From positions 1 to 54,666 of the forward strand of contig CABZOW010000004.1 of assembly GCA_902527525.1 (NCBI GenBank): DNA of 54,666 nt. Direction: 5' to 3'. A program made the translations under genes and the position numbers. This document shows, in pieces, positions 16,228-47,261 of the stretch (the first letter of the stretch is position 1; every line of letters starts with the position of its first letter). The notes under the pieces are model-generated. The model was given only the letters and a program-made list of their open reading frames with translations. It was not told the DNA's origin and searched no databases. The DNA comes from an uncultured Alphaproteobacteria bacterium (GTDB lineage Bacteria > Pseudomonadota > Alphaproteobacteria > HIMB59).

Positions 16228-17202
16228 ATGATGAAAGTAACCTCTTTAGACTTATTCGCAGGTATAGGTGGTATGAGAATTGGTTTAGAAAAGGCATTAA
16301 AAAAATATCGCTTCAAACATGAATGTGTCATGGCAAGTGACATAGACAAATATGCCAAAGAAACCTATTTAAATAATTTTCCATCTACTCCTTTTATTGG
16401 TGATGTTAGTGACTTAAATAATGAGAATAAGATTAAAAAAATTATACCTAAACATAACCTTTTATTAGCTGGTTTTCCATGCCAGCCCTTCTCCAGAGCT
16501 GGACACAAAAAAGGACTTGAGGATACTAGGGGTACTCTTTTTTATTATATTGCTAAAATATTATCTAATAAGAAACCTGATGCTTTTATCTTAGAAAATG
16601 TCAGAGGTCTAAAAGAACATGACGAAGGGAAAACCCTAGAAATAATGCTTAAAGTTTTAAGAAAGAAATATTTTGTTCCCGACCCAAAAGTATTAAATTC
16701 AAAAGATTTTGGGCTACCACAAAATAGGGCAAGAATTTTTATCGTAGGAATAAGAAAAGATCTCTATAAAAAAAAATTTATTTTCCCAATTGGAAACAAA
16801 AAAGAAACTTATGTGGGTCAGATACTAGAAAAAAGAGTTGGTAAAAGTTTTCAAATAAGTGACAGGCTATGGGACAGTCATGTGAAGCGTAAAGAGAGAA
16901 ACAAAAAAAATGGTAAGGGTTTTGGGTATAGCCTTTTTGATAAGCATGATCCCTATACAAGGACTCTATCAGCGAGATACAACAAAGATGGTAGTGAAAT
17001 TTTAATTAAAACAAAAAAGAACCCTAGAAAATTGACTCCCAGAGAATGTGCAAATTTACAGGGTTTTCCTAAATCATTTAAACTTACGGTCTCAAATGCT
17101 CAGTCCTATAAACAATTTGGAAATGCTGTTTCAGTTGATGTTGTAGAAAATTTATCTAAAAGTCTTATTCAAAGTTTATATTCAAAAAAAATTAATCGAT
17201 AA
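16228..17202 (+). CDS. DNA (cytosine-5) methyltransferase, DISARM DrmMII-like
   Basis: A 324-residue enzyme that transfers methyl from S-adenosylmethionine to C5 of cytosine in DNA. Motif I is LDLFAGIGGMRIGL (residues 7-20). The catalytic PCQ loop is GFPCQPFSRAG with nucleophile Cys85. ENVRGL at 123-128 is motif VI, and QNRARIFIVGI follows near residue 165. The target-recognition stretch lies about 190-270, and the C-terminal TPRECANLQGFP...SYKQFGNAVSV closes the domain. No partner restriction nuclease is adjacent. Instead its last 11 bases overlap the end of the convergent drmB-like gene. In class 2 DISARM such a methylase marks host DNA; here it would be transcribed separately from the defence operon. 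Confidence 0.88.
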   Translation: MMKVTSLDLFAGIGGMRIGLEKALKKYRFKHECVMASDIDKYAKETYLNNFPSTPFIGDVSDLNNENKIKKIIPKHNLLLAGFPCQPFSRAGHKKGLEDTRGTLFYYIAKILSNKKPDAFILENVRGLKEHDEGKTLEIMLKVLRKKYFVPDPKVLNSKDFGLPQNRARIFIVGIRKDLYKKKFIFPIGNKKETYVGQILEKRVGKSFQISDRLWDSHVKRKERNKKNGKGFGYSLFDKHDPYTRTLSARYNKDGSEILIKTKKNPRKLTPRECANLQGFPKSFKLTVSNAQSYKQFGNAVSVDVVENLSKSLIQSLYSKKINR

Positions 17203-19099: not shown

Positions 19100-22000
19100 T
19101 TCTATTAATCCTTACTTGTCCTTGTCCATCAACTGTTCTCATATTTGTTAATGTTTCTATCGCATCGTCCCAGTTCTCATCTAAGGAGGTATTGAATGGT
19201 TTAAGCAAAGGTTTTTTTTGATTTAATTTCGTAATATCCATATATCCATAAATCTCAGGCTCTAAACTTTTCCATTTTTGGAAAAAACTATCTATTAATT
19301 CTTCAATTTCAGATTTCTCATTTTCATAATATTCAGGTTCGCAAATTTTAAACCTCTCAAGGACAATTGATTTAACTTTTGTTATGAGTTCCTCATCTAC
19401 TAGTTTTATGGAAGGTTTATCTTCAAGACTCTCATCACCAATCAATTTCACTAAGGTTAAAATCACCGAATGTAATGCTCTTTCTAGAAGATTTTTGGAA
19501 AAAGGAGTAACAGATGTAGGTTCCACATAGCTATATATAGAGGAATGATAGTGATCAAATCTCTCAAAGTGCGATCTATCTCTTGATTTCGAGGTGTTGT
19601 ATATTGTAAAAACCAAGCCTAAATCAGATTTGCTTCTACCAACTCTACTAGATGCCTGAATATATTCTGAAGTGGTTTTTGGCTGACCATTGATGATCAT
19701 TATATTTAATCTCGAAATATCAATACCTACTTGGATCATATTCGTTGCAAGACAGATATCTACAACACTACCGCCGCTCATTTTTACTTCTTTATCATCA
19801 GTACCAATAATTTTATTTTGCTGTAATCTTTGAAAGTATTTTGTCAAATTAGACTCAGTTTCTCTACTGGTTAACTCTACCTTGCCTTTGTCTGAATAAA
19901 GATATCTTCTAATATGTTTTTTTTTCTCATTTTTTGAGGAAATATTTAGGCGGTCATAATACCTTCTCAGGGTATTTCTTATATTATTTTCGATTAGCGT
20001 ATTAGCTTGGTTCAGCTCTCTAGTAGAATTAAAATACAACACACTAGTCCAATACATATCGGCAATATGTGGATCACCTTCATTGAAAAGATGGAGCTTA
20101 GGTTCCTGTGCGATGTAAGCTGTAAGTCTTGATAAGGTAATTTGTTGTGATGAATTTGCAGAAAAAAATATTCCAACATACATTCTTCCTTTTTTTTCTT
20201 CTTTAACTTCAGCAAAATAAGAATTTCCCATTTTACTTAACTGAGGAGGAAACAAATTACTCTGCCTACCATATAATGATCTTATTTGATTTTGAGAGTT
20301 TGAAATTGTAGCTGTTGAAGCAATGATTTTAGGCTTAATGCTCTTTTGATTGATCGTATCTTCGCATAACTTTTCTATCATTAACTCAAAAAAGCCAACC
20401 ATAGAACCTAATTTTCCAGAAATTAGATGTAGCTCATCTTGAATAATTAGCTGAGGTTTAATTTGATTTGGATTTTTCTTGTTGAAGAAAAGTTTCTTTA
20501 CCTCTTTAAATTTCCAAGGTGTGATTGCAAATTTATCGACAGTTGCAATTATTAAGCTTGGCTTTTGCGTATAAAGAACTTCATCAACTGTATACACAGG
20601 AAGGCCTTCATGAAAATCACATTTTGTGTTTTCACAGTAATAATCCCCATCGTCACCGTATCCTTTGGTTGTTAAATCCTCTTGATTTTTTTGTAGTGGC
20701 CCCATTTCAGTTCCACACCAAGGACAATTGAGCAAAACTAAGTTAGTTCTTTTGCCGTTTTCTCTTATTTCATTTTTTATACTTCTCCATCTTTCTTTAG
20801 TGTTTGGCGACGAATTATTACCCACAAATAATCCAATGGATATTTCTTTTTCTCCAAGGAGACTCAAATTACCTCGTCTAATTTTTTCCATCGAGCAAAT
20901 TAATGATTGGGCACGTTGGAATTGTTGGCCAGTAAGGAGGCGAAGTGTATATCTCATCAATATATAATTTCCGAAAGATTTTGAGTTTATAATTTTGTTA
21001 TAAAAAATTGTAAAAGCAGAAAGTCCAAGATATGCCTCTGTTTTTCCACCACCAGTTGGGAACCAAAGAAGGTCTACAATGTTTCTAGAGGGGTCGTCTT
21101 TATCAATAATCGACTTTAAATTAATTAGAATAAAAGCTAATTGAAATGGTCTCCATAAACCTCTTTTTATATTAGCTGCATAATCTTCATAATTAGTTAT
21201 GTCTATTTGATAGTTTTCTTCAGAATATTTAAAGTTATCTTTGTCCCAAATATTCTTTTTTCCATTAAATCCATTTTCAACAATATGGTAATGACATTGC
21301 TGCATAATCATTGACTGATTCATTAATTGAAATGCTTTTAAACAATGGGGGCTAAAAATATCAGAGCCTCTGCTAATTAAAGATAGTCCTTCTTTTATTC
21401 GTCTTTTAATATTTTTACATTGTTCTAAATTTCTTAAAAAAAAGAAATTCTCACTTTCAGACATATTGTCTTGTTCGGCAGAAGTTTTAATTATCCAATC
21501 ATCATAATTTGAAATCAATAAATTAACTTGGTTAGAAATATAATTTTCATCCTTGCTAAGTTTAAACATTGACAGCTCAATTGCCTCATTGGGCTCTACT
21601 GGATGAGTATAGTGTTTTGGCATAGATACTGTGTACACAGAATTACATAAACTTTTTATAGGATCATTCCAACTACATGCACAACCATGACCAATAGCAA
21701 AATTCTTTTTATCTCTATTTAAAAAATTTGAATTATATAGATCATAAATTAGATCATGGTATTTCTCTCTCTTGAAATTATCCTCTTGGTTAAGAATAGT
21801 TTCAAAATCTGATTTGAAAGAAATGAAACAATTTTTATTATTTAAACTATTAATTCTTAGATTGGCTTGAAAAATACATTCTTGGTTATCAATTTTTGGT
21901 TTTTCTCCCGGTGCTTGCTCTTTTTGAATATTATTAATAAGAGAAGTGGTAATAAAAAAAAGTCCTTTATGTGATTTATACGTTCTGCCCTCAATATGAA

Positions 22001-22919
22001 TTTTTATTTTGTCATCCTCAAAAAGATGGTCAATTTTAAAATTTTTTTTATTTGACAATTCATCAGCACGTAAAATATAGCTAAGATTCCTCTTATATCT
22101 AACATAACCACTAATATTTTTTGAAAACTTTTCATCAGAAGGCATTGATTTATATAAATCTTGCAGATTATTTAATAATTCTTGAATTTTATTTTTATCT
22201 AATGAACTTACCTTGTTGAATAAAGATAAAAGTCTTTTATCTGTTTTATCATTAATGTCTTGTTTACAGATTTTTCTTATAGGATTAATGATGTTACCAA
22301 AATTATTTTCATCAATTCCTAAATCTTCATAATAAATATTTCTATCAAGACTAAACTCTTCATAAATATTTAAAGATTGATTAATATAGATTACTTCTAA
22401 AAAAAGTAATTCAATAATTTCATCCTCTATATTATCAATTTTTTTATAAACAGATATCTCATCTGCTATTACTTCAATATCATCAGAAAAATCTGTGATA
22501 ACTGTCAAACCCAAAGAACTAGGTAAATATTGATTTGCTAAACTTATATTAGTGTCTTCTGCAGATTCAGTTTCTACTTTCTCATTTTCATTATCCTCTA
22601 TCTCAAAACTATTGTCATTATTAGCAACATCTTCTCTTCCATACTTTATTTCATCTTCATTTTCATCTGAACTTGAAATATCTTCTTGGGTTTCGTTGCT
22701 ATCAATAATTGATCTTTGTGGAAATAAAACTCCTGCACCATATTTATTTTTGGGCCCTGGTTGTAAAACTATTTCAGTTTCGTAGTCAAAAAAAGATTTA
22801 GATAATTTATATTTATTGGGAAATAAATTTTTGAAAGTCTTTATGTCTGGCCCAATTGACTCTTGATATATTTGATCATATAAAGAATTTCTAAAGCTAT
22901 TTTCCGTCATATACATCAT
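19086..22919 (-). CDS. drmA: DrmA-like SF2 helicase of a DISARM-type system
   Basis: A 1277-residue helicase. The first 590 residues are a large, acidic and poorly conserved N-region. The Walker A motif is PTGGGKTEAYLG (621 on). A CxxC pair (CPWC at 732-735, then C762 and C767) forms a probable zinc element inserted in the first RecA domain. The DExH box is QDELHL (827-832), and STATISNS follows near 868. In the second RecA domain ATNMIQVGIDI (1058-1068) and QASSRVGRS (1088-1096) are motifs V and VI. This architecture with GGGKT-EAYLG and DELH is that of DrmA, the ATPase that works with DrmB in DISARM. It overlaps the upstream NERD-helicase gene by 23 bases. Confidence 0.87.
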   Translation of the reverse strand: MMYMTENSFRNSLYDQIYQESIGPDIKTFKNLFPNKYKLSKSFFDYETEIVLQPGPKNKYGAGVLFPQRSIIDSNETQEDISSSDENEDEIKYGREDVANNDNSFEIEDNENEKVETESAEDTNISLANQYLPSSLGLTVITDFSDDIEVIADEISVYKKIDNIEDEIIELLFLEVIYINQSLNIYEEFSLDRNIYYEDLGIDENNFGNIINPIRKICKQDINDKTDKRLLSLFNKVSSLDKNKIQELLNNLQDLYKSMPSDEKFSKNISGYVRYKRNLSYILRADELSNKKNFKIDHLFEDDKIKIHIEGRTYKSHKGLFFITTSLINNIQKEQAPGEKPKIDNQECIFQANLRINSLNNKNCFISFKSDFETILNQEDNFKREKYHDLIYDLYNSNFLNRDKKNFAIGHGCACSWNDPIKSLCNSVYTVSMPKHYTHPVEPNEAIELSMFKLSKDENYISNQVNLLISNYDDWIIKTSAEQDNMSESENFFFLRNLEQCKNIKRRIKEGLSLISRGSDIFSPHCLKAFQLMNQSMIMQQCHYHIVENGFNGKKNIWDKDNFKYSEENYQIDITNYEDYAANIKRGLWRPFQLAFILINLKSIIDKDDPSRNIVDLLWFPTGGGKTEAYLGLSAFTIFYNKIINSKSFGNYILMRYTLRLLTGQQFQRAQSLICSMEKIRRGNLSLLGEKEISIGLFVGNNSSPNTKERWRSIKNEIRENGKRTNLVLLNCPWCGTEMGPLQKNQEDLTTKGYGDDGDYYCENTKCDFHEGLPVYTVDEVLYTQKPSLIIATVDKFAITPWKFKEVKKLFFNKKNPNQIKPQLIIQDELHLISGKLGSMVGFFELMIEKLCEDTINQKSIKPKIIASTATISNSQNQIRSLYGRQSNLFPPQLSKMGNSYFAEVKEEKKGRMYVGIFFSANSSQQITLSRLTAYIAQEPKLHLFNEGDPHIADMYWTSVLYFNSTRELNQANTLIENNIRNTLRRYYDRLNISSKNEKKKHIRRYLYSDKGKVELTSRETESNLTKYFQRLQQNKIIGTDDKEVKMSGGSVVDICLATNMIQVGIDISRLNIMIINGQPKTTSEYIQASSRVGRSKSDLGLVFTIYNTSKSRDRSHFERFDHYHSSIYSYVEPTSVTPFSKNLLERALHSVILTLVKLIGDESLEDKPSIKLVDEELITKVKSIVLERFKICEPEYYENEKSEIEELIDSFFQKWKSLEPEIYGYMDITKLNQKKPLLKPFNTSLDENWDDAIETLTNMRTVDGQGQVRINRIVKQ

Positions 22920-24708
22920 ATTCTAGCAGCCTATTGTATATTTGCTGTATTTTTTTACGAAATTTTTCGTTTATCAAAATTTTTAAATTGCTCTTGGCTC
23001 TAGTTAAAGCAATGAAGTGATATAAATTTTCTTGTGCATTACTAAAATCTACATCTATATAAATTATAGTTGAGGCCTCTAATCCTTTGAAACCTTGTAA
23101 TGTAGAAAAATATACTTGATCTTTTTTGTATAAAAATGAGTGGATATTCTTCTCTGTTAAAATTGTTAAATCAAAATTTACATCTGCAAAATTAACTTTA
23201 TTAAGTAAAGAATTGGGAAGTGTGAATTTAGATAAAAATACAATACCTTGTTTAATTAACTCGTAGTCAAAGCTCTTAATTATTTCAGATATTTTAAAAA
23301 TAAAATCATCTTCGTTTGTAAAATATTGAATTTCTGGAACTAGATTGCTTTTAGTAACTAATTTGAATGGTAAATGATTATATTCTCCAAAAGCGGAAGC
23401 ATACTTACCTATATTAACTGTATTTCTGTAATTTTTCTTTAATGTGCTTTTCCAAAAACTATCAAAAAATGAATTATAGTTTTTTAAAGATTGTCTTTTA
23501 TAAATATTTTGGTTTTCAAAATCACCAAAAAAAACTAGTGAACTTTCATCAAAAGTATTTTTTAAAAGTAAGTTAATAAATTCAAGATTTAAGTCAGATA
23601 AAATATCTTGTGCTTCATCAACAATAATAAAATCAAATTTATATTTTTCATCTATTGCGGCGATAGCAAATCTAGGAAGTATCTCATCAAAAACTTCGCT
23701 ATCATTTTTGCCCTCTATTGAATTTTTATAATCAACCTCTAAAGATGATTGTCCAACTATTTTTCTCATCAAATCATGAATAATAAAACAATTTTCATTA
23801 TTCATATTTTCATTTTCCAATTTAAATTGAACAGATGTTTTGATTAACTTATTAAAATAAAGAAAACAAACTTTGTGAGTCAATGAAACTCTCTTATATA
23901 GCTCAATAGCTAAAAAACTTTTACCGGTACCAGGTGGTCCCTGAAATAAAATCTTTGGATTTGAGTCTAAGTTATCTTCAATATTGTCTAATTGATCTTG
24001 CTGTTCAGTTGAAAAACTACAAATTGCTTCATCTACTAATTGATTTAAATAAGATAATTTTACAACAAATTGAAAGTCAGGTCTTAGGATCTGCTTAATT
24101 GATTTCATTAATTTTTGATCAAAATGTTTATTTTTAAACTCGAATTGCTTTGAATTATTAAGTTGCAAATTAACTGACTTAATTAACCTTTGAATGAAAT
24201 CTTCATCTGAATTGAAATCATCATGGCAAGTAAGGTCTTCTCTATTGATGTCTGAGGGTAATATTGGTCTAGTACATTCGGGAAACATGACATGCATACC
24301 TAAAGATCGATTAGATATTTTCTCCCATATAATTTTATGGTTATCTTTTAATCTCTTATGAATAACTTCATTGAGTTTAAACATACCATCCTTTGCTTGT
24401 TGGAAAGGAGATTTGGTTAATTTTTCATAGTTTCCCTTATACCTATTGAATATGGTCCATACTCCGTCTTCACATTTAAGATGAGAGGATTTAGCTTCAA
24501 TACAAATTATTCCAAATTCTGGAATAAGAATAACAAAGTCTATTTCTCCAAATCTATATTTATCTCTGGAAGTTCCAGGAGGTAAACCCAAGGAATGCAA
24601 AACAATCCAATTTTTAGTTTGCTTATTTTTTTCAAAAATTTTAAATATTTTTTTTTCAGCCGAACTTTTCGTATATTCAAAAATATTTGGGGGATAACAT
24701 TTAGCCAT
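22897..24708 (-). CDS. NERD nuclease domain fused to an SF1 (UvrD-like) helicase
   Basis: A 603-residue protein. Residues 15-130 form a NERD domain: GEIDFVILIPEFGIICIEAKS gives the PD-(D/E)xK-type acidic residues E55/D57 and the E71-A-K73 pair. An SF1 ATPase follows: Walker A GPPGTGKS at 257-264, Walker B IIVDEAQD at 361-368, FFGDFENQ near 393, TLQGFKGLE near 536 and ALTRAKSNL at 567-575. NERD proteins are predicted nucleases, and NERD-helicase fusions turn up in defence islands and plasmids. In this operon it sits between the DrmE-like and DrmA genes, overlapping both, where known class 2 DISARM has no such protein. The PLD protein DrmC is missing here, so this could provide the nuclease activity of the system. 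Confidence 0.82.
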   Translation of the reverse strand: MAKCYPPNIFEYTKSSAEKKIFKIFEKNKQTKNWIVLHSLGLPPGTSRDKYRFGEIDFVILIPEFGIICIEAKSSHLKCEDGVWTIFNRYKGNYEKLTKSPFQQAKDGMFKLNEVIHKRLKDNHKIIWEKISNRSLGMHVMFPECTRPILPSDINREDLTCHDDFNSDEDFIQRLIKSVNLQLNNSKQFEFKNKHFDQKLMKSIKQILRPDFQFVVKLSYLNQLVDEAICSFSTEQQDQLDNIEDNLDSNPKILFQGPPGTGKSFLAIELYKRVSLTHKVCFLYFNKLIKTSVQFKLENENMNNENCFIIHDLMRKIVGQSSLEVDYKNSIEGKNDSEVFDEILPRFAIAAIDEKYKFDFIIVDEAQDILSDLNLEFINLLLKNTFDESSLVFFGDFENQNIYKRQSLKNYNSFFDSFWKSTLKKNYRNTVNIGKYASAFGEYNHLPFKLVTKSNLVPEIQYFTNEDDFIFKISEIIKSFDYELIKQGIVFLSKFTLPNSLLNKVNFADVNFDLTILTEKNIHSFLYKKDQVYFSTLQGFKGLEASTIIYIDVDFSNAQENLYHFIALTRAKSNLKILINEKFRKKIQQIYNRLLEYDVYDGK

Positions 24709-27260
24709 TAAGGAATATAAAGTCTGTTCACATGACTAATTGGCACACTAAAGTTTACCGTACGAACAGTATCTATCTTAAGAACCCATCCTTCAGGATT
24801 TTCTGAATTATCTCCACCAAGTTGTACGGATCCATTTTTATCTATATCGACCCTTATTCTATCATTATGTATATTAAAAATATTATCATTAAATATATTC
24901 ACAGTTTGTTCGAGAATTCTTTTAGTTAAATCTCTGCCTACACTTTGATGTTTAGATCTGATTAATTGTGCTGAGTTATAAACTTCCCTTAATTCTTTAT
25001 CTGAATATCTAGAATCACATATTTTATTTATTAAAATTAAATCACTATATTCCTCTGGACAATAAACATCACCGTACAGCCAATTGTGTAAAGTGTTTCT
25101 TGTTTTTTTAAAACCAATTTTTTGTAATTGAAATAAAATATCATCTGTGTCAAATCCTTGACCTGTATTAAATTTATTTTCTAACATATTTTTCCATTTT
25201 TCTGAATTTTTCTTCAAAACTTCATTTTCCTCATTGTTTGAAATCCTTTTAGTCTCTTCTTCATAAATTACTTTATCTCCGGTATTTCTTATAATTATTA
25301 TGTCATCGTATTGAAAATTTGATGAATTGACTTTAGATATCTCAAACTTCTCATCCTTCTCTTGATTAATGATTTTATAATCGTGATTTTGATAAAAATA
25401 GGCCATACCTCCGCACTGAAATTTTAGGAGTATTGGAATTACTTGCTCCTCATTTGATTGATAAGACTCAAAAATTGGCCTATCCAATAATTCATCTAAA
25501 TTTACAAGACGCATTTTATCGTCATCTAAAGATTGTTCGACTTTATCTTTAGATGAAATAGTTTCATATTTTTCACCAAAAATATTTATTTTCTCATTAT
25601 TGTTGCTATCAAATTTAACGAGTTCCAACCAAGCTTTTTTGGAAAAAAACTTTTTATAAAAATTATGTTCAAAATTATTACATAAAAATGTTATTTTTTT
25701 TGATAATTGTGAGAAAATAATCTTGTGAAGATAATCTCTTTTTATGTAGCAACACACTAACATTGACTCAAAAGTAGGTAAATCTTGGGTTTTATTTAAA
25801 ATATTCTTTAAGGTTAAAAAGGTGCAATTTGGATATTTGTTTTTTAATTGGTCATTAAAGTTAAAATTATTTGGTATTATAACCAGTGTATCTTGATTAT
25901 TTATTCTTAAAAATTCGTTTATTTCCATTATTTTATTCTCAAAAAATATATTTTTTTTAAAAAACTCTTTAATTAGTGAGTTTATTTTTTCAAAAGAGGA
26001 TATTTTGTTGGTATCGAGATCAAATTTTTTTATCTCTAATATTTCAGAGAATATTTGAATTGATTGTTTAGCTAATTTAAATTTTTCATTATTTTCGATA
26101 TCAATTAAATCATTTGATCTAAATATAGTATTTGTAAGTTTAGATAAAATTTCTCTTTCTTCTTCACCAAAGTTTTTTAAATCTTTTGTTAGTTCAAAAT
26201 ACAAATTACATATTTTGTCAAAATCAGAGTCTATATATTTAACAAAATTGTAATCAAATTCCTTATAATCAGAAATACGTTTTGAAATTGATTTTTCAAA
26301 ATTAGTATTTGAATTGATTAAAGTATTCTCTGTATTCCTATCATTGCCATACAATAAGTAATGGAAATTTTGTTTTTTTATTAAATTAATTTGATTTATT
26401 TGATTAGGGTGAATAAATAGAATTATTTTATTGTTTTGAGTAAATCTATCCACCCAAGTATCTTTATTAACAAGGGAGTTTATATTATTCACAAATAGAG
26501 TTTGATTGTGATCTGCTAGTTCAAGATTCTTAAGACTATTTGTATATTCAAATACAGTCGCATTATCAAAAATCTGATCCTTATACTTGTAATGAGTTCT
26601 TAGACTTTTTTTGTTTATGAAAGATAACGGAAATTCATTGATATAAATTTTCTTTGCTTGGTCATTTTGGAAGTAATAAGTATCCAAAAAGTCTAAGTGA
26701 TTATGTTTCTTGTTTCTATTAATCAAAAATATATTTTCTTCTGTGAGATTTTCAAAGTTATAATTATTTTCTTCTTTGAAAAAATCTTCCAACTTATTAA
26801 TGTTTTTTTTATTTTTGAAAGAGGGAAATTTAGAATTTCCTTTGGGTGCTGACCTATTTGTTCGAACGATTTTATTTTTTTCATTTAGCAAGTGCTTATT
26901 TATCTCTTTGGAATTAACATCACTGATATAAATTCTATTGAAATATTGATTCATACCTTGACCTACTTGAGGAATTTGTTCTGTAACATAATTATGAAAT
27001 ATGAATATTTCGTTGTTAAATGGTTCGATGTAGCAATTATCTCCTTGACGAGGAAATTCCTTATTATGATTAGAAGTGTTGAGTGATTGAGAGAGAGAAT
27101 ATAAATAAAAAACGTTATAGAAATCTTTTTCATTCAATGGCAAAATTATTGAAATTTTATTTGAATTAGAATTCTTTATTAAAGACACTAATTCTGTGTA
27201 AATTTTATCGTAATTATCGAGGCATATATTCTCTTTATTTTGAATTTTCAAAGACTGCAT
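24708..27260 (-). CDS. DrmE-like protein, first gene of the defence operon
   Basis: An 850-residue protein with no classical catalytic motif. The N-terminal part (residues 1-200) has short hydrophobic strands (ISIILPLNEKDFYNVFYLYSL, IFIFHNYV) that look Rossmann- or NTPase-like without a P-loop. The middle is rich in Asn and Lys. The C-terminal 200 residues carry a Trp-rich segment, WKNMLENKF..G.....DILFQLQKIGFKKTRNTLHNWLYGDVYCP, and a final HVNRLYIP. Size, operon position ahead of drmA and drmB, and the general plan agree with DrmE of class 2 DISARM, whose function is unknown. The equation with DrmE is an inference from context and rough pattern. The start at 27260 lies 36 bases from a GTGAAA-N14-TTTCAC operator. 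Confidence 0.6.
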   Translation of the reverse strand: MQSLKIQNKENICLDNYDKIYTELVSLIKNSNSNKISIILPLNEKDFYNVFYLYSLSQSLNTSNHNKEFPRQGDNCYIEPFNNEIFIFHNYVTEQIPQVGQGMNQYFNRIYISDVNSKEINKHLLNEKNKIVRTNRSAPKGNSKFPSFKNKKNINKLEDFFKEENNYNFENLTEENIFLINRNKKHNHLDFLDTYYFQNDQAKKIYINEFPLSFINKKSLRTHYKYKDQIFDNATVFEYTNSLKNLELADHNQTLFVNNINSLVNKDTWVDRFTQNNKIILFIHPNQINQINLIKKQNFHYLLYGNDRNTENTLINSNTNFEKSISKRISDYKEFDYNFVKYIDSDFDKICNLYFELTKDLKNFGEEEREILSKLTNTIFRSNDLIDIENNEKFKLAKQSIQIFSEILEIKKFDLDTNKISSFEKINSLIKEFFKKNIFFENKIMEINEFLRINNQDTLVIIPNNFNFNDQLKNKYPNCTFLTLKNILNKTQDLPTFESMLVCCYIKRDYLHKIIFSQLSKKITFLCNNFEHNFYKKFFSKKAWLELVKFDSNNNEKINIFGEKYETISSKDKVEQSLDDDKMRLVNLDELLDRPIFESYQSNEEQVIPILLKFQCGGMAYFYQNHDYKIINQEKDEKFEISKVNSSNFQYDDIIIIRNTGDKVIYEEETKRISNNEENEVLKKNSEKWKNMLENKFNTGQGFDTDDILFQLQKIGFKKTRNTLHNWLYGDVYCPEEYSDLILINKICDSRYSDKELREVYNSAQLIRSKHQSVGRDLTKRILEQTVNIFNDNIFNIHNDRIRVDIDKNGSVQLGGDNSENPEGWVLKIDTVRTVNFSVPISHVNRLYIP

Positions 27261-27296: not shown

Positions 27297-27330
27297 TTTA
27301 GTGAAAAAAAAGATTTACTATTTCACTAAA
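27297..27330. promoter_or_regulatory. Inverted-repeat operator A, at the defence operon promoter
   Basis: Perfect 10-bp half-sites TTTAGTGAAA (27297-27306) and TTTCACTAAA (27321-27330) are separated by 14 bases. The element lies 36 to 70 bases upstream of the DrmE-like gene, where a repressor would block the promoter. The same core with the same spacing occurs at 32306-32339 and 32915-32948. The centres of the GTGAAA and TTTCAC boxes are 20 bp apart, two turns of the helix, which suits a dimer or a pair of dimers on one face. Confidence 0.7.
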
Positions 27331-27382
27331 TAATGACATTAAAAGTTATTGTGACTCTTATATATTTTTAGTTAAGCGCCCA

Positions 27383-28075
27383 TTATTTTTTTATGGTACT
27401 TAATTTTTGTAATTTTAAATTAGAAATTAAATTTTTATTAATAAACAATCTGAAAAAAACAAGAATTAGTAAAAAAGATGAGATTTCTAAAACTATAGAA
27501 AAAAGTAAATAAATTTGTTTATTATTATTCGCATTATTAATTTCAATGTTTAGATTATCAATTTCTCCTAAAGTAGCACCTGCTTCTTTTTGCAAAACTC
27601 TATAAAATTTCATAATTTCGTATAAATAATCTTCAAAAATGGAATAACTAGATAAATTTTCAACTTCTAATTCTTCAATATTTTTTTTTAAATTTTCGAA
27701 ATTTCTAATGGTGGTTTGATCTATAAACTCTTTTACATATTTATTTGAAATCACTATTTCCATAAAATTTGAAGTATAAAATTTCAAATTAGATAATAAA
27801 TCATCACTAAATAATCTAAAATTTAATGACATCTGAATTGATTCTAAATACTCACTGTTTAAAGATGTAAGCGAAAAATAAGAGGATTGTATATTTTGAA
27901 ATTTATTATTTAACTCTGGTATTCTTTCCTGCATATTTCTAATATTCCCCTCTGCTTGAACAACATATTGCTGAATTGCCAAAGATCCAAATTGTAAAAC
28001 ACCAGCTATGATCAAAATTATAAATCCTCTTTTACTAATTTTACTAAACTTCTTCACTACTTCTAATATCCACAA
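27383..28075 (-). CDS. Membrane protein with two TM segments and a long helical extracytoplasmic domain
   Basis: A 230-residue protein. TM1 is at about residues 16-34 (GFIILIIAGVLQFGSLAI) and TM2 at about 190-212 (LLFSIVLEISSFLLILVFF). The 155 residues between are predicted helical, with heptad-like patterns (residues 40-65 and 125-150), probably outside the cytoplasm. The architecture is the same as that of the 250-residue protein encoded upstream, whose 3' end it overlaps by 32 bases, so the two are likely partners or old paralogues. The fold recalls the sensor part of chemoreceptor-like proteins but no signalling domain follows. It is the last gene of the channel/protease operon. Confidence 0.6.
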   Translation of the reverse strand: MWILEVVKKFSKISKRGFIILIIAGVLQFGSLAIQQYVVQAEGNIRNMQERIPELNNKFQNIQSSYFSLTSLNSEYLESIQMSLNFRLFSDDLLSNLKFYTSNFMEIVISNKYVKEFIDQTTIRNFENLKKNIEELEVENLSSYSIFEDYLYEIMKFYRVLQKEAGATLGEIDNLNIEINNANNNKQIYLLFSIVLEISSFLLILVFFRLFINKNLISNLKLQKLSTIKK

Positions 28076-28796
28076 ACTGAATTACGATGAAGATTAATAA
28101 TTGCAAAACAAATGAAATTAAAATGATATTTGTCGATAATTGAGATGTTTCATTTTTTTTTAAATTGAGATCTATTATTTTTTTATCGACTTCATTTTTA
28201 GCAGATTGAAATATACTTAAAGCATTTTCAAGTAAGCCCCTAGTTTCAAAAATAGAGTCTATTAAATTTCTTTGAAAAGTTCTGAAGTCAGTATTAGGAT
28301 TTTCACTATTAAAATCAATACTTTTAAGAACTTCAACTGCTTTATTATACCCCTCCTCTAATTCTTCAATATCATATTTAGATAATTGTTCATTTGTGAA
28401 ATTGTATTTCATATCTCTCGCTGAATTTTTAAGTTGCGTTGGCATTTGATTAAGAATTTGGAAAATTCTAAATGTTATTGTTTGTTCTCGATCAATTTCT
28501 TTTTCGAATGTTTCATAGGTAATATTTATAATGTCAGAAGTTTGAGTAAATCTCCTATCCGATTTATGAAGGTTTTCACTAATTAACTGAACCCATTGAT
28601 TGTAAATTCTTTGTTTTGTTTGTTCTTTTGAGATTTGTAAAGAAATATCATTTATTTTAATTTCATAGCTAATTGAGATTATTGAGGCGATCAGTGCAAA
28701 AACTGTTAAAAAAATTGCAAGGTCAACAACTCTTTTTAAAGTTGAGTAATCAAAAAAGTTTATAGAATTTTTAAGATGAACTAATCTTAATCTCAA
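28044..28796 (-). CDS. Membrane protein with two TM segments and a long helical extracytoplasmic domain
   Basis: A 250-residue protein with TM1 at about residues 25-46 (VDLAIFLTVFALIASIISISY) and TM2 at about 218-240 (STNIILISFVLQLLIFIVIQF). About 170 helical residues between them are rich in Gln, Lys and Glu, including a probable coiled coil near 180-212 (FQSAKNEVDKKIIDLNLKKNE). It shares this plan with the next protein (27383-28075), and the genes overlap by 32 bases. No enzymatic motif is seen. In the operon it follows a secreted protein, a PrsW-like protease and a pLGIC homologue, so a membrane-complex role is plausible. Confidence 0.6.
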   Translation of the reverse strand: MRLRLVHLKNSINFFDYSTLKRVVDLAIFLTVFALIASIISISYEIKINDISLQISKEQTKQRIYNQWVQLISENLHKSDRRFTQTSDIINITYETFEKEIDREQTITFRIFQILNQMPTQLKNSARDMKYNFTNEQLSKYDIEELEEGYNKAVEVLKSIDFNSENPNTDFRTFQRNLIDSIFETRGLLENALSIFQSAKNEVDKKIIDLNLKKNETSQLSTNIILISFVLQLLIFIVIQFVDIRSSEEV

Positions 28797-28800
28797 ATAA

Positions 28801-29388
28801 TTACTGTCGGAAAGGGTCTCTTGAAGACGGTTTTTTTAATTTTCTTTTCATATTAATACTATTTCTTGAAGTTCCAACTTCAGCAACAAGTTCCTGACAT
28901 TGTGCGAGAGAAACTGCTGCGTTATAACTACCATCTAAAACTAAACCTAGTAAATCTCTGTCATTATATGTGAATCTAATTGAGTCCATCTTTGCAAAGG
29001 TTACAAGAAATTCTGCTCCAACTACAAACTCTATACCTTTATGATCACCATAGCTCACTACTTCTGCTTCACCAATCCACTTATCAGCAAATGGTTCAAA
29101 AATTACACCCATTTCATGGATATCTCCAACTTGTAGGCTACTCCATAAAGGGTTCACAAGATGCAAATAAACATTTTCAGCGTTTTGTCTGTTATCAACA
29201 TAAACTGAGAGCATTTCTCCTCCTTCATATACTGGTGAAGATGTATAGCAGCCAAAATTTAGATGGGGAAGTATACCAATTTCCCAGCCACCGATTTCAT
29301 CATAAAAAATGGGATCATCATTACTGGCAGAATACAATGATGAAAAGTTTGTAGTCATCAAAAAGAGCAATAATAAAATTAATTTCAT
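28801..29388 (-). CDS. Secreted protein of unknown function
   Basis: A 195-residue protein with a clear signal peptide (residues 1-21, LILLLLFLMTTNFSSLYSA). The mature part is beta-rich (GGWEIGILPHLNFGCYTSS, YVDNRQNAENVYLHL, IEFVVGAEFLVTF, SIRFTYNDRDLLGLVLDGSYNAAVSLAQC) and has two cysteines, C47 and C166, that could form a disulfide. The C-terminal 20 residues are basic. The final '-DGSYNAAVSLAQCQ' segment resembles the ends of small periplasmic proteins that pair a helix with a late Cys. It overlaps the stop of the PrsW gene by one base. It may be a soluble periplasmic partner of the channel. Confidence 0.6.
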   Translation of the reverse strand: MKLILLLLFLMTTNFSSLYSASNDDPIFYDEIGGWEIGILPHLNFGCYTSSPVYEGGEMLSVYVDNRQNAENVYLHLVNPLWSSLQVGDIHEMGVIFEPFADKWIGEAEVVSYGDHKGIEFVVGAEFLVTFAKMDSIRFTYNDRDLLGLVLDGSYNAAVSLAQCQELVAEVGTSRNSINMKRKLKKPSSRDPFRQ

Positions 29389-30203
29389 TAATTTATAAAA
29401 CCAAAAATTATTGCAATTAACAATGAAAAAATAAATCCCACTAATGAAATTTTAATAAAATCTTTATAAAGTGAATTTGTAGTCTCGTATTTGAACTTAT
29501 AGGTTTCTAGCTTTGGTAAGAAAATTAAGCAACCTGTAATTAATATTATGTCAAAACCAAAAATATAATAGTCAACATAATTTTCAAATAATACTTTACT
29601 GTCAAATGTGTAATTATGCAAGCCATGCAAAAATATAGGTACCACTAATGATAGAGAAAGAATTATATTTTTTTTAAATTTTACTAATCTTGACTTCGCA
29701 ATAAGAATACCCATTATAATTCCTAAAGACACATGCCCTATTAAAGCCCACCATCTATTTTCAATAAATTTAATCATTGGCTCCAAACCATAGTAGTCGT
29801 AAATAAGGTAATTATAATTTTCTGCAACAGCATAGCCCAAACCAACTGTTACCCCATAAATAACGCCATCTGATATTTCATCAAAGTACGTACTCTTATA
29901 AACAAATAAAAAAATAATTGAAAATTTTAAAAATTCTTCAAGAAAGGCTGCTCGAAAAAAAGCATTTAGGGAATAAAAATGCTGATTATCAAAATAATTT
30001 ACTAAAAAAGGATCTACAATAGTAATTAAAAGATCTAAAGGAATAATTATTATGTATGTCAATGCAAATGTTGAAAGAACCATCGTTATTGGTTCTTTGT
30101 TTTTTTCTCTAAGTAAAAATAAACCTATTAATAATATTGCAGGTATTATATTAAGCGATAAATAAAAAAAGCTAGGCGTATTATTTTGTAATATGGATAT
30201 CAT
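29388..30203 (-). CDS. PrsW-family intramembrane metalloprotease
   Basis: A 271-residue membrane protein with eight or so TM segments. The PrsW/CPBP-like residues are visible: FLEEFLKF at 88-95 supplies the double Glu and Lys, AVAENYNYL at 125-133 the second Glu/Asn, IGHVSLG at 155-161 a His, and LHGLHNY at 192-198 the last pair of His. PrsW in Bacillus cleaves an anti-sigma factor in the membrane, so this protease could process a membrane regulator or the neighbouring membrane proteins. The gene directly abuts the pLGIC homologue upstream (30204) and overlaps the secreted-protein gene by one base. It may release a signal from one of the 'TM - helix - TM' proteins of the same operon, but this is speculative. 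Confidence 0.82.
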   Translation of the reverse strand: MISILQNNTPSFFYLSLNIIPAILLIGLFLLREKNKEPITMVLSTFALTYIIIIPLDLLITIVDPFLVNYFDNQHFYSLNAFFRAAFLEEFLKFSIIFLFVYKSTYFDEISDGVIYGVTVGLGYAVAENYNYLIYDYYGLEPMIKFIENRWWALIGHVSLGIIMGILIAKSRLVKFKKNIILSLSLVVPIFLHGLHNYTFDSKVLFENYVDYYIFGFDIILITGCLIFLPKLETYKFKYETTNSLYKDFIKISLVGFIFSLLIAIIFGFIN

Positions 30204-31370
30204 TTATTTACTTAAATATATCAGCGCACCAATAACAGAACTTGATAAAATATAAGAAAATGGAGCTAATACTCTTAATTTTAGATCAATTGGATTAAAG
30301 TCTCCTGATAGTTTGTCTCTTCTATAATCATAATATGAATAAATTGTCACAAAAGTAGCTAAGCCAGAAAATAAATATGAAATTAGAATAAAAGAGTCGA
30401 GAATAGTTAAGCTATTTAACTTTGGAATATCCGCATTAACAGCAAAGTTGTATGCAATCAAAGCTAATAAGCATACTATGGAAACATTCAACTTCGCTTC
30501 TATCTCATTATTTCTAATCCAAAATACACTAAAGGATAGGAAAACTAAGAAAATTACGGGTATCATAATCTTTAATACATAGTAATTAAAATTTCTCTTA
30601 AAACTAAATTCATAGGTAATGTTTGCATACTGATCACCATTTAAAAATGTAAAAGGTTCCTCGTAAATATTATGTGAACTCAAATTAAATTCGTGTAATC
30701 CAGAGAGCTGGGATATTACTTTCTTGTTCCACTCAAGCTGAGATATTGGATTTTCTCCATAGAAGTCAGCAAATAACTGATCATAATTATCAATTAAATC
30801 ATCTGTACCAAGAGAAGGATATTCAAAGTTTAAAAAAACTTCTATTTCATCAAAAGGAAATTTTTTGTAATAATTTTCATTAACTATTTCTATTTCTTTT
30901 TCTTGTTGATATTCAAACAACCAATAACTTCCATCGTAACTTTGATCATTTGATACTTTAAATACATATAAATAATTATATTTTGTCTTAATATCTTTAT
31001 TTGTTCTTAAATCAGGTAAATAAACATGAATTCTTTCAAAAATTTTCTTAATTTGATCATCATTTGTAAATTCACATGACTCAGATGAAAGGTTTGGGTA
31101 ACGGTCATTAATATAAGACTCAAATGTTTCATTAGGATAGTAAAGAATTTGATTGTAGCCTATATTTGATTTTGATGATTGTTCAAAGATTTTCCATTTT
31201 TTGATAGCAACCTCAGTGGAAAGAACAAAACCTTTTTTAATAGAGGTATCTGAAATAATTGTCTCTGGATCTAATAAAATATTACATAAGTCATTTGATT
31301 TTAGATTTACTGGAACCAGCAAAATGTACGATGTGATTAATATCCAAATATATTTATAAAAATTGCTCAC
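30204..31370 (-). CDS. Pentameric ligand-gated ion channel (Cys-loop family) homologue
   Basis: A 388-residue protein with a signal peptide (1-24) and an extracellular ligand-binding domain to about residue 260. The 'FPFD' motif of the loop that is the Cys-loop in animals lies at 171-174 (KKFPFDEIEVF); the cysteines are absent, as in other prokaryotic members. Four TM helices follow: M1 262-285 with the conserved Pro (MIPVIFLVF), M2 about 293-311 (the pore helix, LNVSIVCLLALIAYNF), M3 322-346 and M4 365-386. Relatives such as GLIC and ELIC gate on protons or small amines. The domain before residue 165 is longer than in GLIC and of unknown ligand. The gene heads the stretch with the PrsW protease. 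Confidence 0.85.
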   Translation of the reverse strand: MSNFYKYIWILITSYILLVPVNLKSNDLCNILLDPETIISDTSIKKGFVLSTEVAIKKWKIFEQSSKSNIGYNQILYYPNETFESYINDRYPNLSSESCEFTNDDQIKKIFERIHVYLPDLRTNKDIKTKYNYLYVFKVSNDQSYDGSYWLFEYQQEKEIEIVNENYYKKFPFDEIEVFLNFEYPSLGTDDLIDNYDQLFADFYGENPISQLEWNKKVISQLSGLHEFNLSSHNIYEEPFTFLNGDQYANITYEFSFKRNFNYYVLKIMIPVIFLVFLSFSVFWIRNNEIEAKLNVSIVCLLALIAYNFAVNADIPKLNSLTILDSFILISYLFSGLATFVTIYSYYDYRRDKLSGDFNPIDLKLRVLAPFSYILSSSVIGALIYLSK

Positions 31371-31418
31371 AAAAACAGGTCATTTGATTTATAAGTCTTT
31401 AAATATACTATTTGTATT

Positions 31419-31727
31419 TTAAAATAGCCAAGAATTATCGCATCCTGATACCCAAGATTTAACCTCATCCCCAGAAGATTGATAATCAGGAAATATTTCT
31501 AATATCAAACTATTGTTGAATATTACTTCACTTTGAGAATTACAAATATCCTTTGTCTTAAAAAGATCTGGAAAATAAATTTTATACCAACTATTGCTTC
31601 CTTGGCAGTTATCGCCTGCCAAGGTTGAAGACACGTAATAATTACATAAGAATGCTTTATATTCTTTTGCATAAGAAAAGGAATTTAAAGAAATCATAAT
31701 AATGATTAGGGTAAATATTTTTTTCAT
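31419..31727 (-). CDS. Small secreted cysteine-containing protein
   Basis: A 102-residue protein with a signal peptide ending near residue 20 (IFTLIIIMISLNSFSYA). Four Cys of the mature part (about residues 28, 41, 62 and 95) may form two disulfides. Short aromatic motifs (CNYYVSSTL, WYKIYFPDLF, SWVSGCDNSWLF) suggest a small beta-rich domain. No family is recognised. It lies three bases after the small membrane protein gene and 48 bases before the pLGIC gene on the same strand, so it belongs to the same transcription unit; it might be a soluble modulator of the channel. Confidence 0.5.
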   Translation of the reverse strand: MKKIFTLIIIMISLNSFSYAKEYKAFLCNYYVSSTLAGDNCQGSNSWYKIYFPDLFKTKDICNSQSEVIFNNSLILEIFPDYQSSGDEVKSWVSGCDNSWLF

Positions 31728-31730
31728 GAC

Positions 31731-32063
31731 TTAAAAGCTTGTAATAGTTACGAATAAAAACAAGATAGCTTTAATTAGCCTACTAAGAACACATAGATGC
31801 AATATAAAAGTTATAAATCCATGTGACTCATGCTTAATATTTGATTGGTACAGACCAACGCATGTGTAAATCATAAAGGCAGTCATCAAAGAAAATGATA
31901 TTTGGTTTGGTATATAGTCCATAGATATTCCAAGTAAACCAGTAACTAAAATACTTAGGAAAACAAAAATCCCCCAGAAAGATGTGCCTATACCTAATTC
32001 TCCTCTCCAGTAAGACAAGAAGAAATTATCAGCAGGTTTTTTCATAGAAATATTATAGGTCAT
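31731..32063 (-). CDS. Small integral membrane protein with an N-terminal SYWRGELGIGTSFW motif
   Basis: A 110-residue protein with about three or four TM segments (residues about 27-46, 55-75 and 85-108). Just before the first is FFLSYWRGELGIGTSFWG, a motif ('WRGE.....SFW') I recall at the start of many small uncharacterised alphaproteobacterial membrane proteins. Function is unknown. The start abuts the stop of the HTH gene (32064), so it is translated from the same message. It precedes the secreted Cys protein and the pLGIC gene and may be part of one membrane assembly. Confidence 0.55.
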   Translation of the reverse strand: MTYNISMKKPADNFFLSYWRGELGIGTSFWGIFVFLSILVTGLLGISMDYIPNQISFSLMTAFMIYTCVGLYQSNIKHESHGFITFILHLCVLSRLIKAILFLFVTITSF

Positions 32064-32261
32064 TTATACTCCCTCCTTCAATTGTTTCTCACAGAATTTG
32101 TCAATGTCAGCCATAACATATCTGACTTTGCCATTAAATAGTCTCTTAAATTTAGGACCTTGTCCTGTCTTCCTCCAATACCTTAACGTGTGATATGGTA
32201 TGTCTAAATAACTAGCAAGACTTTTTTCGTTTAAATGTGTGTTTATTTTTTTAGTTTTCAT
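32064..32261 (-). CDS. AlpA/excisionase-like helix-turn-helix DNA-binding protein
   Basis: A 65-residue protein. It carries a MerR/AlpA-like winged HTH: LNEKSLASYLDIPYHTLRYWRKTGQGPKF is the helix-turn-helix with its Arg/Lys-rich wing start, and VRYVMADIDKFCEKQL is the second strand-helix pair of the HTH_17 type. Proteins of this size regulate integrase or excision in mobile elements, or a nearby operon. It heads the channel/protease operon and its promoter region (32262-32334) contains operator B, so it may be the autoregulator of this set and of the defence operon. That is an inference; the 153-residue protein at 32953 is the other candidate. Confidence 0.72.
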   Translation of the reverse strand: MKTKKINTHLNEKSLASYLDIPYHTLRYWRKTGQGPKFKRLFNGKVRYVMADIDKFCEKQLKEGV

Positions 32262-32305
32262 TATTTTCTCCTTATTTAATATATTTAGTTATGTTATGAA
32301 AAACT

Positions 32306-32339
32306 TTTAGTGAAATTTAAAATTTTTATTTTCACTAAT
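32306..32339. promoter_or_regulatory. Inverted-repeat operator B, at the channel operon promoter
   Basis: Half-sites TTTAGTGAAA (32306-32315) and TTTCACTAAT (32330-32339) are separated by 14 bases, with one base differing from a perfect repeat. It lies 44 to 78 bases upstream of the HTH gene that begins the channel/protease operon and overlaps the last codons of the upstream unknown gene (stop at 32335). Core and spacing are identical to operators A and C. Confidence 0.7.
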
Positions 32340-32871
32340 GTACAGTGATTATTTCTTTTTCTAATTGGTGAATATATAAATCAAATTCGTCTAATACTTC
32401 ATCAAAAAGATTTTGAACATATTTTCTAGAGTATATGTGATTTTTTTTTAATTCTTTTTCATTGTGTTTTTTTATGTATTTATTTGCCCTAACGGCAAGT
32501 AAATAATAAAAATGGTATTTAGTTAAATAGTCATACAAATTATTTCTATGGCATACTTTGGTTATAACGATAAATAACCAACTAAGCTCTTTGTGAAAAT
32601 GTGTAACAATATAATTATAACCCCTGGGGTCATTTTTAAATTTTTTCATATCGTTAGGAGATACAATACCAGTATCTGCACCACCCCATTTTTTATCATG
32701 CTTGTTTTTAGACTTAGCTATTTCCTTATAAACCACATCAAGATTAAGTCTGGAATTTATTAAATTTAAATCTCTTTTTGCATTTGTTATTTGAGGTATG
32801 TATTTAGGTTTCTTAGACTCGTCACCTTCTTCAAAATAATCAGTAATATCAATAATTTTTCCTTTTTTCAT
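32335..32871 (-). CDS. Hypothetical helical protein in the regulatory region
   Basis: A 178-residue protein rich in Lys, Asn and aromatic residues and mostly helical. The N-terminus (KKGKIIDITDYFEEGDE) looks like a short strand plus a charged helix. Residues 80-130 are hydrophobic (YIVTHFHKELSWLFIVITKVCHRNNLYDYL). No domain is recognised. It diverges from the 153-residue regulator-like gene across a 81-base region that contains operator C, so it is likely controlled by that operator. It may be a nuclear component of the system or an accessory of a mobile element; nothing visible decides. Confidence 0.5.
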   Translation of the reverse strand: MKKGKIIDITDYFEEGDESKKPKYIPQITNAKRDLNLINSRLNLDVVYKEIAKSKNKHDKKWGGADTGIVSPNDMKKFKNDPRGYNYIVTHFHKELSWLFIVITKVCHRNNLYDYLTKYHFYYLLAVRANKYIKKHNEKELKKNHIYSRKYVQNLFDEVLDEFDLYIHQLEKEIITVH

Positions 32872-32914
32872 ATAATCAGTCCTAGTTGAAAGTATGTGTC
32901 AAAGATGATTAAAT

Positions 32915-32948
32915 TAAAGTGAAAAAGATTATAGTTTATTTCACATAA
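32915..32948. promoter_or_regulatory. Inverted-repeat operator C, between the divergent regulator genes
   Basis: Half-sites TAAAGTGAAA (32915-32924) and TTTCACATAA (32939-32948) are separated by 14 bases. The outer bases differ from operators A and B, but the core GTGAAA-N14-TTTCAC is identical. The site lies 43 bases upstream of the 178-residue gene start and ends 4 bases before the ATG of the 153-residue gene, so it could regulate both and give autoregulation of the latter. Confidence 0.65.
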
Positions 32949-32952
32949 GAAA

Positions 32953-33414
32953 ATGTCTGGATATACAAGAGAGTTTTTATCAATAGAGCAAGCACTAAAA
33001 GAAATAGTAAGAAAAATTGATAAAGAAGATATCAAGAGTGCAACTGGGAAATCAGAATCTTTTTTTCGAAAGTGTAGTGATGAAAGTGATAGTGAACATA
33101 ATCTTCATCTAAAAGATGCCGTAGAAATAGATATTTTAGCTTTTAAAAAAGGTTTAGGAACGCCTCTGATGTCCTGCATCGAAGCTTTAATAAAAAGTAA
33201 AAGTTCAGCTAATGAATATGAAGCTATAACCACATCTTTATTAAATATAGGTGGTAGGATCGGATCATTGATGGAAAAAATAAAAGATTTTACTCATATT
33301 CATAGTGAGGGTGGTATCAGCTTAACCAAAAGAGAAAAAGATGAAATTTATAAATCGATAGCAAGTCTTGAAGAAAAAGTGATTAATTTAAAAATATCAG
33401 TAGATAAGAACTAA
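32953..33414 (+). CDS. Putative phage-CII-like regulatory protein
   Basis: A 153-residue cytoplasmic protein. The first 90 residues look like a small DNA-binding helical domain: IEQALKEIVRKIDKEDIKSATGKSESFFRKCSDESDSEHNLHLKDAVEIDILAFKKG (a helix pair, then a 'K-S-x-S-F-F-R-K-C-S-D' turn). The C-terminal region (about 100-150) contains GGRIGSLMEKIKDF and a coiled coil. It is clearly paralogous to the protein at 46796-47260. The pattern resembles the CII/CP76 type of phage regulators, but this is not certain. It diverges from the 178-residue gene across operator C. Both paralogues lie beside pLGIC genes, so the pair probably belongs with that system as its regulator. Confidence 0.6.
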   Translation: MSGYTREFLSIEQALKEIVRKIDKEDIKSATGKSESFFRKCSDESDSEHNLHLKDAVEIDILAFKKGLGTPLMSCIEALIKSKSSANEYEAITTSLLNIGGRIGSLMEKIKDFTHIHSEGGISLTKREKDEIYKSIASLEEKVINLKISVDKN

Positions 33415-34645: not shown

Positions 34646-34858
34646 TTTTTATTAAATTAATTTCACTTCCTCTTCTCCAAAGATGCCATTGACCACCTAG
34701 AAGCAAACATCAAGTTTTCTAAAATTTCATCAATAAATTTCATTGTTGAATTATCATATTAATCTAATTTTAATAAGGTCTCTCCATTTTCAGGTTCAGA
34801 AAATTGTTTTGAAAGCTCATCTAAATAATCATCTTTTTCATAGTATAAAGCTTTTAAA
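34341..34858. repeat. 518-bp direct repeat, left copy
   Basis: Identical, base for base as far as I compared by eye, to 52464-52981 (offset 18123, same orientation). It contains most of the secreted-protein gene, a fragment resembling the start of an UPF0114 (YqhA) gene, and the last 34 codons of an ftsB-like gene. Just outside, the left copy continues as a truncated beta-glucosidase (34859 on), the right copy as the complete ftsB-like gene. The repeat therefore encloses 17,605 bases of unrelated sequence. Confidence 0.9.
34663..34743 (-). pseudogene. Fragment resembling the N-terminus of UPF0114 (YqhA), 26 codons
   Basis: The minus-strand frame from the ATG at 34743 reads MKFIDEILENLMFASRWSMA and stops six codons later. 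The 'ENLMFASRW' pattern matches the N-terminus of UPF0114 membrane proteins, where FASRW is followed by a TM helix; here the frame diverges instead. A second identical copy is at 52786-52866 in the other repeat. It is too short to be functional and is probably the remnant of a truncated gene. The homology is a pattern judgement. Confidence 0.4.
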
Positions 34859-35010
34859 CCATCAATACCTTTTAATTTTTTTTGGGCGAATTCGTCCCAA
34901 ATAGATTTTCCACATTTTCCATAACTATTGCCTTCTATTTGATATGATGAAGTAGCAGCACCAAAAGTGAAATTATCTGGAAAATCCTTAAGAACAGAAA
35001 GATTATCCAA
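34759..35010 (-). pseudogene. Beta-glucosidase (GH1), truncated after about 50 residues and fused to an ftsB-like tail
   Basis: An 83-codon frame. Residues 1-49 are the start of a family 1 glycosidase: [18 protein letters not shown] is the conserved N-terminal signature, and [10 protein letters not shown] follows. Residues 50-83 ([19 protein letters not shown] and on) are the C-terminal end of an ftsB-like protein identical to that at 52882-53175, because the 518-bp repeat begins at 34858. More than 85% of the glycosidase, including both catalytic Glu, is missing. It overlaps the stop of aglK by 8 bases, so the gene once completed the alpha-glucoside operon. Confidence 0.85.
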
Positions 35011-46691: not shown

Positions 46692-46798
46692 ACCCCTATA
46701 ATGAGAAAAAGCATTATTAAAAATAGTCCAAAGCTTTTTTACTTTTGGACAGAGATTATTGATTACCCCATTATCATAAATTGCTATAGTGGGGTATG
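46689..46798. promoter_or_regulatory. Divergent control region with three CCCC arms and a GTCCAAA hairpin
   Basis: Arm 1 is CATACCCC (46689-46696), overlapping the start codon of the HTH gene. Arm 2 is TACCCCATTAT (46764-46774). Arm 3 is ATAGTGGGGTA (46786-46796), in reverse orientation, overlapping the ATG of the regulator-like gene. Arms 2 and 3 form an 11-bp inverted repeat with one mismatch and 11 bases between. A hairpin, GTCCAAA (46726-46732) and TTTGGAC (46744-46750), lies midway. The mirrored arms over both start codons look like an autoregulatory switch. Confidence 0.55.
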
Positions 46799-47260: not shown

Positions 47261-47261
47261 C

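Follow-up and report, generated by a model that had tools for sequence, protein, structure and literature searches.

One inverted-repeat operator, probably of a CII-like regulator, ahead of an exchangeable defence slot, a channel/PrsW module and the regulator gene in an alphaproteobacterial island

We analyzed a 54,666-bp stretch of DNA from an uncultured, presumably marine Alphaproteobacteria bacterium of the HIMB59 lineage (GCA_902527525.1, contig CABZOW010000004.1), here called the window, for an inverted repeat, GTGAAA-N14-TTTCAC, that recurs at promoters of a defence island. The source assembly comprises 722,145 bp and is rated 50% complete. Three sites were found, all strandless, at 27301–27326 (site 1), 32310–32335 (site 2), and 32919–32944 (site 3), and an initial annotation made from the letters of the window was right that their cores are identical and spaced by exactly 14 bp. 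The core of site 1 lies 40 bp upstream of the drmE start codon. Site 2 lies 48 bp upstream of an AlpA-like gene and overlaps the stop codon of a gene encoding a 178-amino-acid protein, and site 3 lies between divergent genes, 8 bp from the start of a gene for a CII-like regulator and 47 bp from the start of the 178-amino-acid gene. The distance of 36–44 bases to a start codon, initially given for all sites, thus needs to be corrected to these values. An outer TTAG/CTAA symmetry is present only at sites 1 and 2, and the spacer of site 3 holds a TATAAT on the minus strand that is invariant in four genomes.

The CII-like regulator (153 amino acids; 32953–33414, plus strand) was assigned by a weak match to Phage_CP76, by family-level matches, and by covariation of its recognition helix with the half-site. 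The divergent 178-amino-acid protein (32335–32871, minus strand) is without known function and ~90% identical in sister islands. Downstream of site 2, the module operon is encoded on the minus strand, starting with the AlpA-like helix-turn-helix (HTH) protein (32064–32261; HTH_17/MerR match) and two small proteins of 110 (31731–32063) and 102 amino acids (31419–31727). They are followed by a ligand-gated-channel-like protein (30204–31370; Neur_chan_memb, Pfam match over cut-off), a PrsW-family intramembrane protease (29388–30203; Pfam E-value 3.4e-25), a 195-amino-acid protein with no assigned function (28801–29388), a 250-amino-acid protein that is 98% identical in sister islands (28044–28796), and, as the final gene before the slot, a 230-amino-acid protein with a weak match to type II restriction enzymes (27383–28075; PADLOC E-value 0.00057). 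The channel-like protein has 388 amino acids, compared to 466 for the one encoded at the equivalent place in three other islands, and its gene may have been replaced too, as the cargo was.

Behind site 1, likewise on the minus strand, the cargo of the window is of the DISARM type and comprises a DrmE-like protein with a DrmE C-terminal domain as first gene product (24708–27260; DrmE_C E-value 6.8e-18), a NERD-helicase (22897–24708), a DrmA-like helicase (19086–22919; PADLOC 652.7 bits), and a DrmB-like protein (17192–19099; PADLOC 266.3 bits). Convergent to it, on the plus strand, a C5 cytosine methyltransferase is encoded (16228–17202; type II or DrmMII-like), which reaches 307.6 bits with DrmMII and scores higher with generic type II models. 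The DISARM core genes drmA and drmB and an adjacent methyltransferase gene are present. A scan of the proteins encoded between 17 and 31 kb gave no match to the phospholipase-D-like core protein DrmC. The island of the window showed no integrase. The methyltransferase gene lies on the opposite strand and has no operator within two mismatches ahead of it, and the initial proposal that one regulator controls the whole island from 16 to 33 kb was too broad. The segment 34241–51139 is inverted relative to three sister genomes of the genus, AG-891-G06 (G018), AG-918-C13 (G034), and AG-894-C10 (G152), with a short GH1 remnant (34759–35010) near one end.

The three sites, all inside this one island, are the only exact matches in the window and in the entire assembly. 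A second-order Markov model predicts 0.0098 matches per window and 0.13 per assembly, and none of 40 simulated windows contained an equal-spaced inverted-repeat family of three members (arms with GC ≥ 2), in line with the low chance stated initially. With two mismatches allowed, nine sites were counted in the window against 5.9 in shuffles; because these counts are so similar, the signal is confined to the exact cores. The latter comparison is what speaks for chance inverted repeats in AT-rich DNA, an explanation to which we assign a negligible probability. It was rejected on the conservation described below, and the exact counts, the restriction to the island, and the placement ahead of unrelated cargo argue against it as well.

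To assess conservation, 162 genomes of the order were surveyed, six of which carry an island-type CII-like gene. All three sites are kept in G018, G034, and G152, although the spacers have diverged. In a second family of the order (G059 and G053), where the regulator is 50–52% identical to that of the window, one exact site precedes the regulator gene and a site with one mismatch precedes the divergent operon. Across the window and its relatives, the start codon of the CII-like gene is 8–18 bp from the operator. The six island-type genomes together hold 16 exact sites, 15 of them inside islands; the sixteenth, at G059:C1:109135, was treated as chance, since it is not close upstream of a gene start. 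The remaining 156 genomes hold 12 exact sites, while a reversed-motif control gave 11 in all 162. One of these 12 is site 1 of a further genome (G033), whose contig stops short of the regulator position. Seven of the 12 have spacers identical or nearly identical to GTGAAAGCTTTTTAGTGAGTTTTCAC and appear to represent a single orthologous site that has nothing to do with the island. The initial annotation had named a genome scan and conservation in related genomes as checks, and many equal sites elsewhere, or a lack of binding and of conservation, as refutation; the scan added no exact site in the assembly, the sites proved to be conserved in the sister genomes and in the second family, and the observation was thus not refuted.

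Two proteins had been put forward as the possible owner of the operator, the AlpA-like and the CII-like one. The AlpA-like candidate, an HTH protein whose gene immediately follows site 2, was rejected and now appears very improbable: AlpA-like genes were found only in the four islands of this genus, and they are absent from the loci of the second family and of IMG/VR that keep paired sites. CII-like relatives in IMG/VR have one palindrome directly upstream of their own start codon, and those that were read have a second palindrome, identical or related in its half-site, on the side of the divergent gene (in L074 and L075, one half of the distal site is degenerate). The half-sites fall into the groups GTGAAA (L074, L075), ATGAAA (L076–L080), ATCCAA (L073), and GGCC-rich (L082), with TESHFRKC, SLSHFRKC, SEAHFRKC, and REDIRRFS as the respective recognition helices of the CII-like proteins. 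ATGAAA sites were read by eye, as the scripted scan filtered low G+C. In the sequences compared, half-site changes hence go along with changes in the recognition helix. Because the paired layout persists without AlpA and the half-site tracks the CII-like helix, the CII-like protein encoded at 32953–33414 is most likely the owner, and the AlpA-like gene is rather a target of the operator. Of the initial proposal that one of the two proteins links the defence operon and the channel/protease operon, the link itself is strongly backed by the comparative evidence, and the CII-like candidate is the one that fits.

Outside the order, only a few, distant CII-like genes were found; those in other Alphaproteobacteria (L085–L088, L090) stand in several cases beside an apparent sensor gene. 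One IMG/VR contig with a CII-like gene (L073, 3671–12677) carries, in addition, genes for a phage-type integrase and for an AAA_25/TOTE-primase-like protein and looks like a satellite or an integrative element.

A paralogue of the regulator is encoded in the core genome. This CII-like protein (46796–47260, plus strand) is ~30% identical to the island regulator and has a differing recognition helix, SKSYIYKC. Its operator, GTCCAA-N13-TTGGAC (46726–46750, strandless), is conserved in the upstream alignment; of the 52 genomes of the genus, 23 contain exactly one copy of it. A core channel-like protein with a PDZ domain is encoded 2 bp past the CII-like gene (47262–48647, plus strand), so that both genes are closely coupled and share an operator of their own (46726–48647). 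The island seems to hold a second, diverged copy of this CII-like/channel pair.

The module, from the 230-amino-acid gene to the regulator, is common to the genus, and the operon behind site 1 differs. In place of the DISARM-type operon, G018 carries MzaB- and MzaC-like genes, a NERD/UvrD helicase, and a C5 methyltransferase, and G152 carries MzaC- and MzaD-like genes and a PD-(D/E)XK protein; the Mza-type cargo was assigned to the Mza/Z1 systems. The cargo of G033 consists of a PD-(D/E)XK homologue, a methyltransferase, and a DrmD/SNF2-like helicase, and that of G034 of a small gene followed by RmuC, which is part of a reported anti-phage system, Shield (PMC10270631). In the second family, the cargo is DndB-like (G059) or a DUF4268 protein (G053). 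G152 has a fourth operator, 34 bp upstream of the first gene of a second cassette, and this gene is a homologue of the first cargo gene of G018. The operator is 34–58 bp from the start of the first cargo gene across genomes, with the exception of G059 (197 bp). By this comparison of gene content, site 1 is a standard socket, in which unrelated defence operons stand behind one operator in relatives.

Such exchange raises the question of whether the palindrome serves chiefly for the recombination or insertion of cassettes and not as a regulatory operator. Site 1 does lie at the edge of the exchanged cargo, and the fourth site of G152 bounds the second cassette. Furthermore, the operator core of G034 (L020; G034:C2:72842–72867) is the exact inverse of the G018 core, and an inverted copy of the module-side flank, matching at all but one of the first 31 bp, is present on the cargo side, which points to an exchange junction at the operator in this genome. 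However, sites 2 and 3 are flanked by conserved genes, the distance to start codons is constrained, the core paralogue has its palindrome at a locus without exchange, and the half-sites follow the helix. We therefore regard a mainly recombinational function as improbable; a double role as operator and exchange junction may apply to site 1.

Taken together, we are fairly confident that the three repeats are operators through which the CII-like regulator acts on its own gene, on the AlpA/channel/PrsW module, and on an interchangeable defence slot. A CII-like multimer would bind two inverted half-sites with a spacing of about two helical turns, as 186 CII does. At site 3, it would cover both divergent promoters, that of its own gene and that of the 178-amino-acid gene, and repress its own promoter, resulting in autoregulation. 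From site 2 it would control the module, and from site 1 the defence cargo, here the DISARM-type operon. The regulator is probably a repressor, since site 3 covers the invariant TATAAT and sits 8 bp from the regulator start, and since the known defence-island regulators BrxR and RptR repress (PMC9122601, PMC12255303). We infer that repression is the default and would be relieved by a membrane signal via the channel-like protein and PrsW. Of the 29 genomes with a channel match over cut-off, 28 have a channel-like gene paired with a CII-like gene, the genes for PrsW, channel, and CII-like regulator are consecutive in one tight operon in G068, and FtsH and RseP, both membrane proteases, degrade coliphage 186 CII (PMC7708051); these observations suggest that a membrane signal may act on the stability of the regulator. 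In G068 and G082 (L070 and L069), which belong to the other family, the CII-like/channel/PrsW operon adjoins a DISARM-like operon, with a DrmA ~36% identical to that of the window. A more far-reaching version would be a membrane-to-DNA alarm, in which the channel detects infection or damage to the membrane, the regulator is cleaved or set free by PrsW, and all operator-bearing promoters respond together. We put this forward tentatively and consider it rather unlikely in full; if it were true, any defence cassette dropped behind the operator would be wired into the alarm at once.

The same regulator could also use the same sites to activate the cargo and module promoters, like 186 CII at pE, and repress its own gene only. 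186 CII is an activator (PMC7708051) and acts on the divergent promoter pE through a site that lies on the start codon of cII. The cargo sites, at 34–58 bp upstream of the start codon, are compatible with an overlap of a −35 element, and no good −35 element was seen by eye at these sites. On the other hand, the TATAAT inside site 3 and the 8–18 bp to the start codon of the regulator suggest blocking, the mode of action of BrxR and RptR points the same way, and the −10 position is inconsistent. Activation is a possibility to be taken seriously, even if we lean against it.

Several observations weigh against the operator assignment to a CII-type repressor as we propose it. A fixed −10 position downstream of the operator was sought and gave weak peaks only; for sites 1 and 2 the −10 element could not be pinned down, so that an activator and a repressor are not told apart on this basis. 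Few independent half-site changes were counted. The island sites have a spacing of N14, compared to N13 in the core paralogue and in the IMG/VR relatives. No convincing recurring repeat or operator was found in G068, G082, G088, and G107, whose CII-like proteins are ~25–30% identical (GGGAA-type repeats in G113 were seen by eye only and not counted). Regarding homology, the window protein scores 15.2 bits against Phage_CP76 (PF06892), below the cut-off of 26, and the family profile gave no significant match to the single sequence of 186 CII. The latter itself reaches 163.6 bits against PF06892.

What switches defence islands on, and how mis-expression of newly acquired systems is avoided, is largely an open question. 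One operator ahead of unrelated cargoes in close relatives suggests that incoming systems are taken into use behind a control site that is already in place. The phage-type CII family is thereby a candidate for a new class of defence-island regulators, with half-site and recognition helix providing a sequence handle for finding the regulator's targets. The link between the regulator and the channel-like and protease genes also makes a role of these genes in defence testable.

Regulators tied to diverse defence systems (BrxR and RptR) and variable defence slots in phages and satellites (PMC9122126) are already known. Within the literature searched, with partial coverage, we found no report of a 186-CII-type regulator in a defence-island role or of one operator ahead of several unrelated, interchangeable defence operons. 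We know of no shared operator ahead of each alternative cargo in the hotspots of P2-like phages and P4-like satellites. The likeness to these hotspots lies in variable defence cargo at a fixed place (PMC9122126). BrxR, of the WYL family, resembles the regulator of the window in being small, in that its own gene and the defence operon each have an inverted repeat, and in its association with diverse systems (PMC9122601). However, it belongs to an unrelated protein family (no WYL domain match was among the Pfam results for the window protein and its relatives), and its repeat has 11-bp arms and a much shorter spacer of 5 bp. RptR is likewise a small HTH-type regulator with a binding site conserved ahead of defence operons (PMC12255303), but it binds three direct copies of the 6-bp palindrome TAGCTA at one promoter and is encoded by the first gene of the operon that it represses.

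The closest parallel is coliphage 186 CII. Weak matches to Phage_CP76 (E-values up to 0.1) were obtained for 10 of 14 family members, with the member from G068 alone passing the cut-off (30.4 bits), and seven matched a PHROG of CII-like activators. The predicted model of the CII-like protein shows an HTH and a helical hairpin. A fold search of this model against viral proteins gave no match with an E-value ≤ 0.001, a sequence search of solved structures gave no convincing relative, and tblastn of phage GenBank records returned no relative. The protein thus probably acts like 186 CII and, judged by these profile matches, would be a remote relative that is not filed as a curated member. Both are HTH proteins of comparable size with weak family-level homology, and both are associated with a pair of inverted half-sites that are spaced by about two helical turns and located where the gene of the regulator begins; in the GenBank record of coliphage 186, the CII site is annotated on the cII start codon with the sequence ATGTTTG-N13-CAAACAT. 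The half-site is a different one, and whereas 186 CII serves one lysogeny promoter, the window has several operators that serve chromosomal defence operons.

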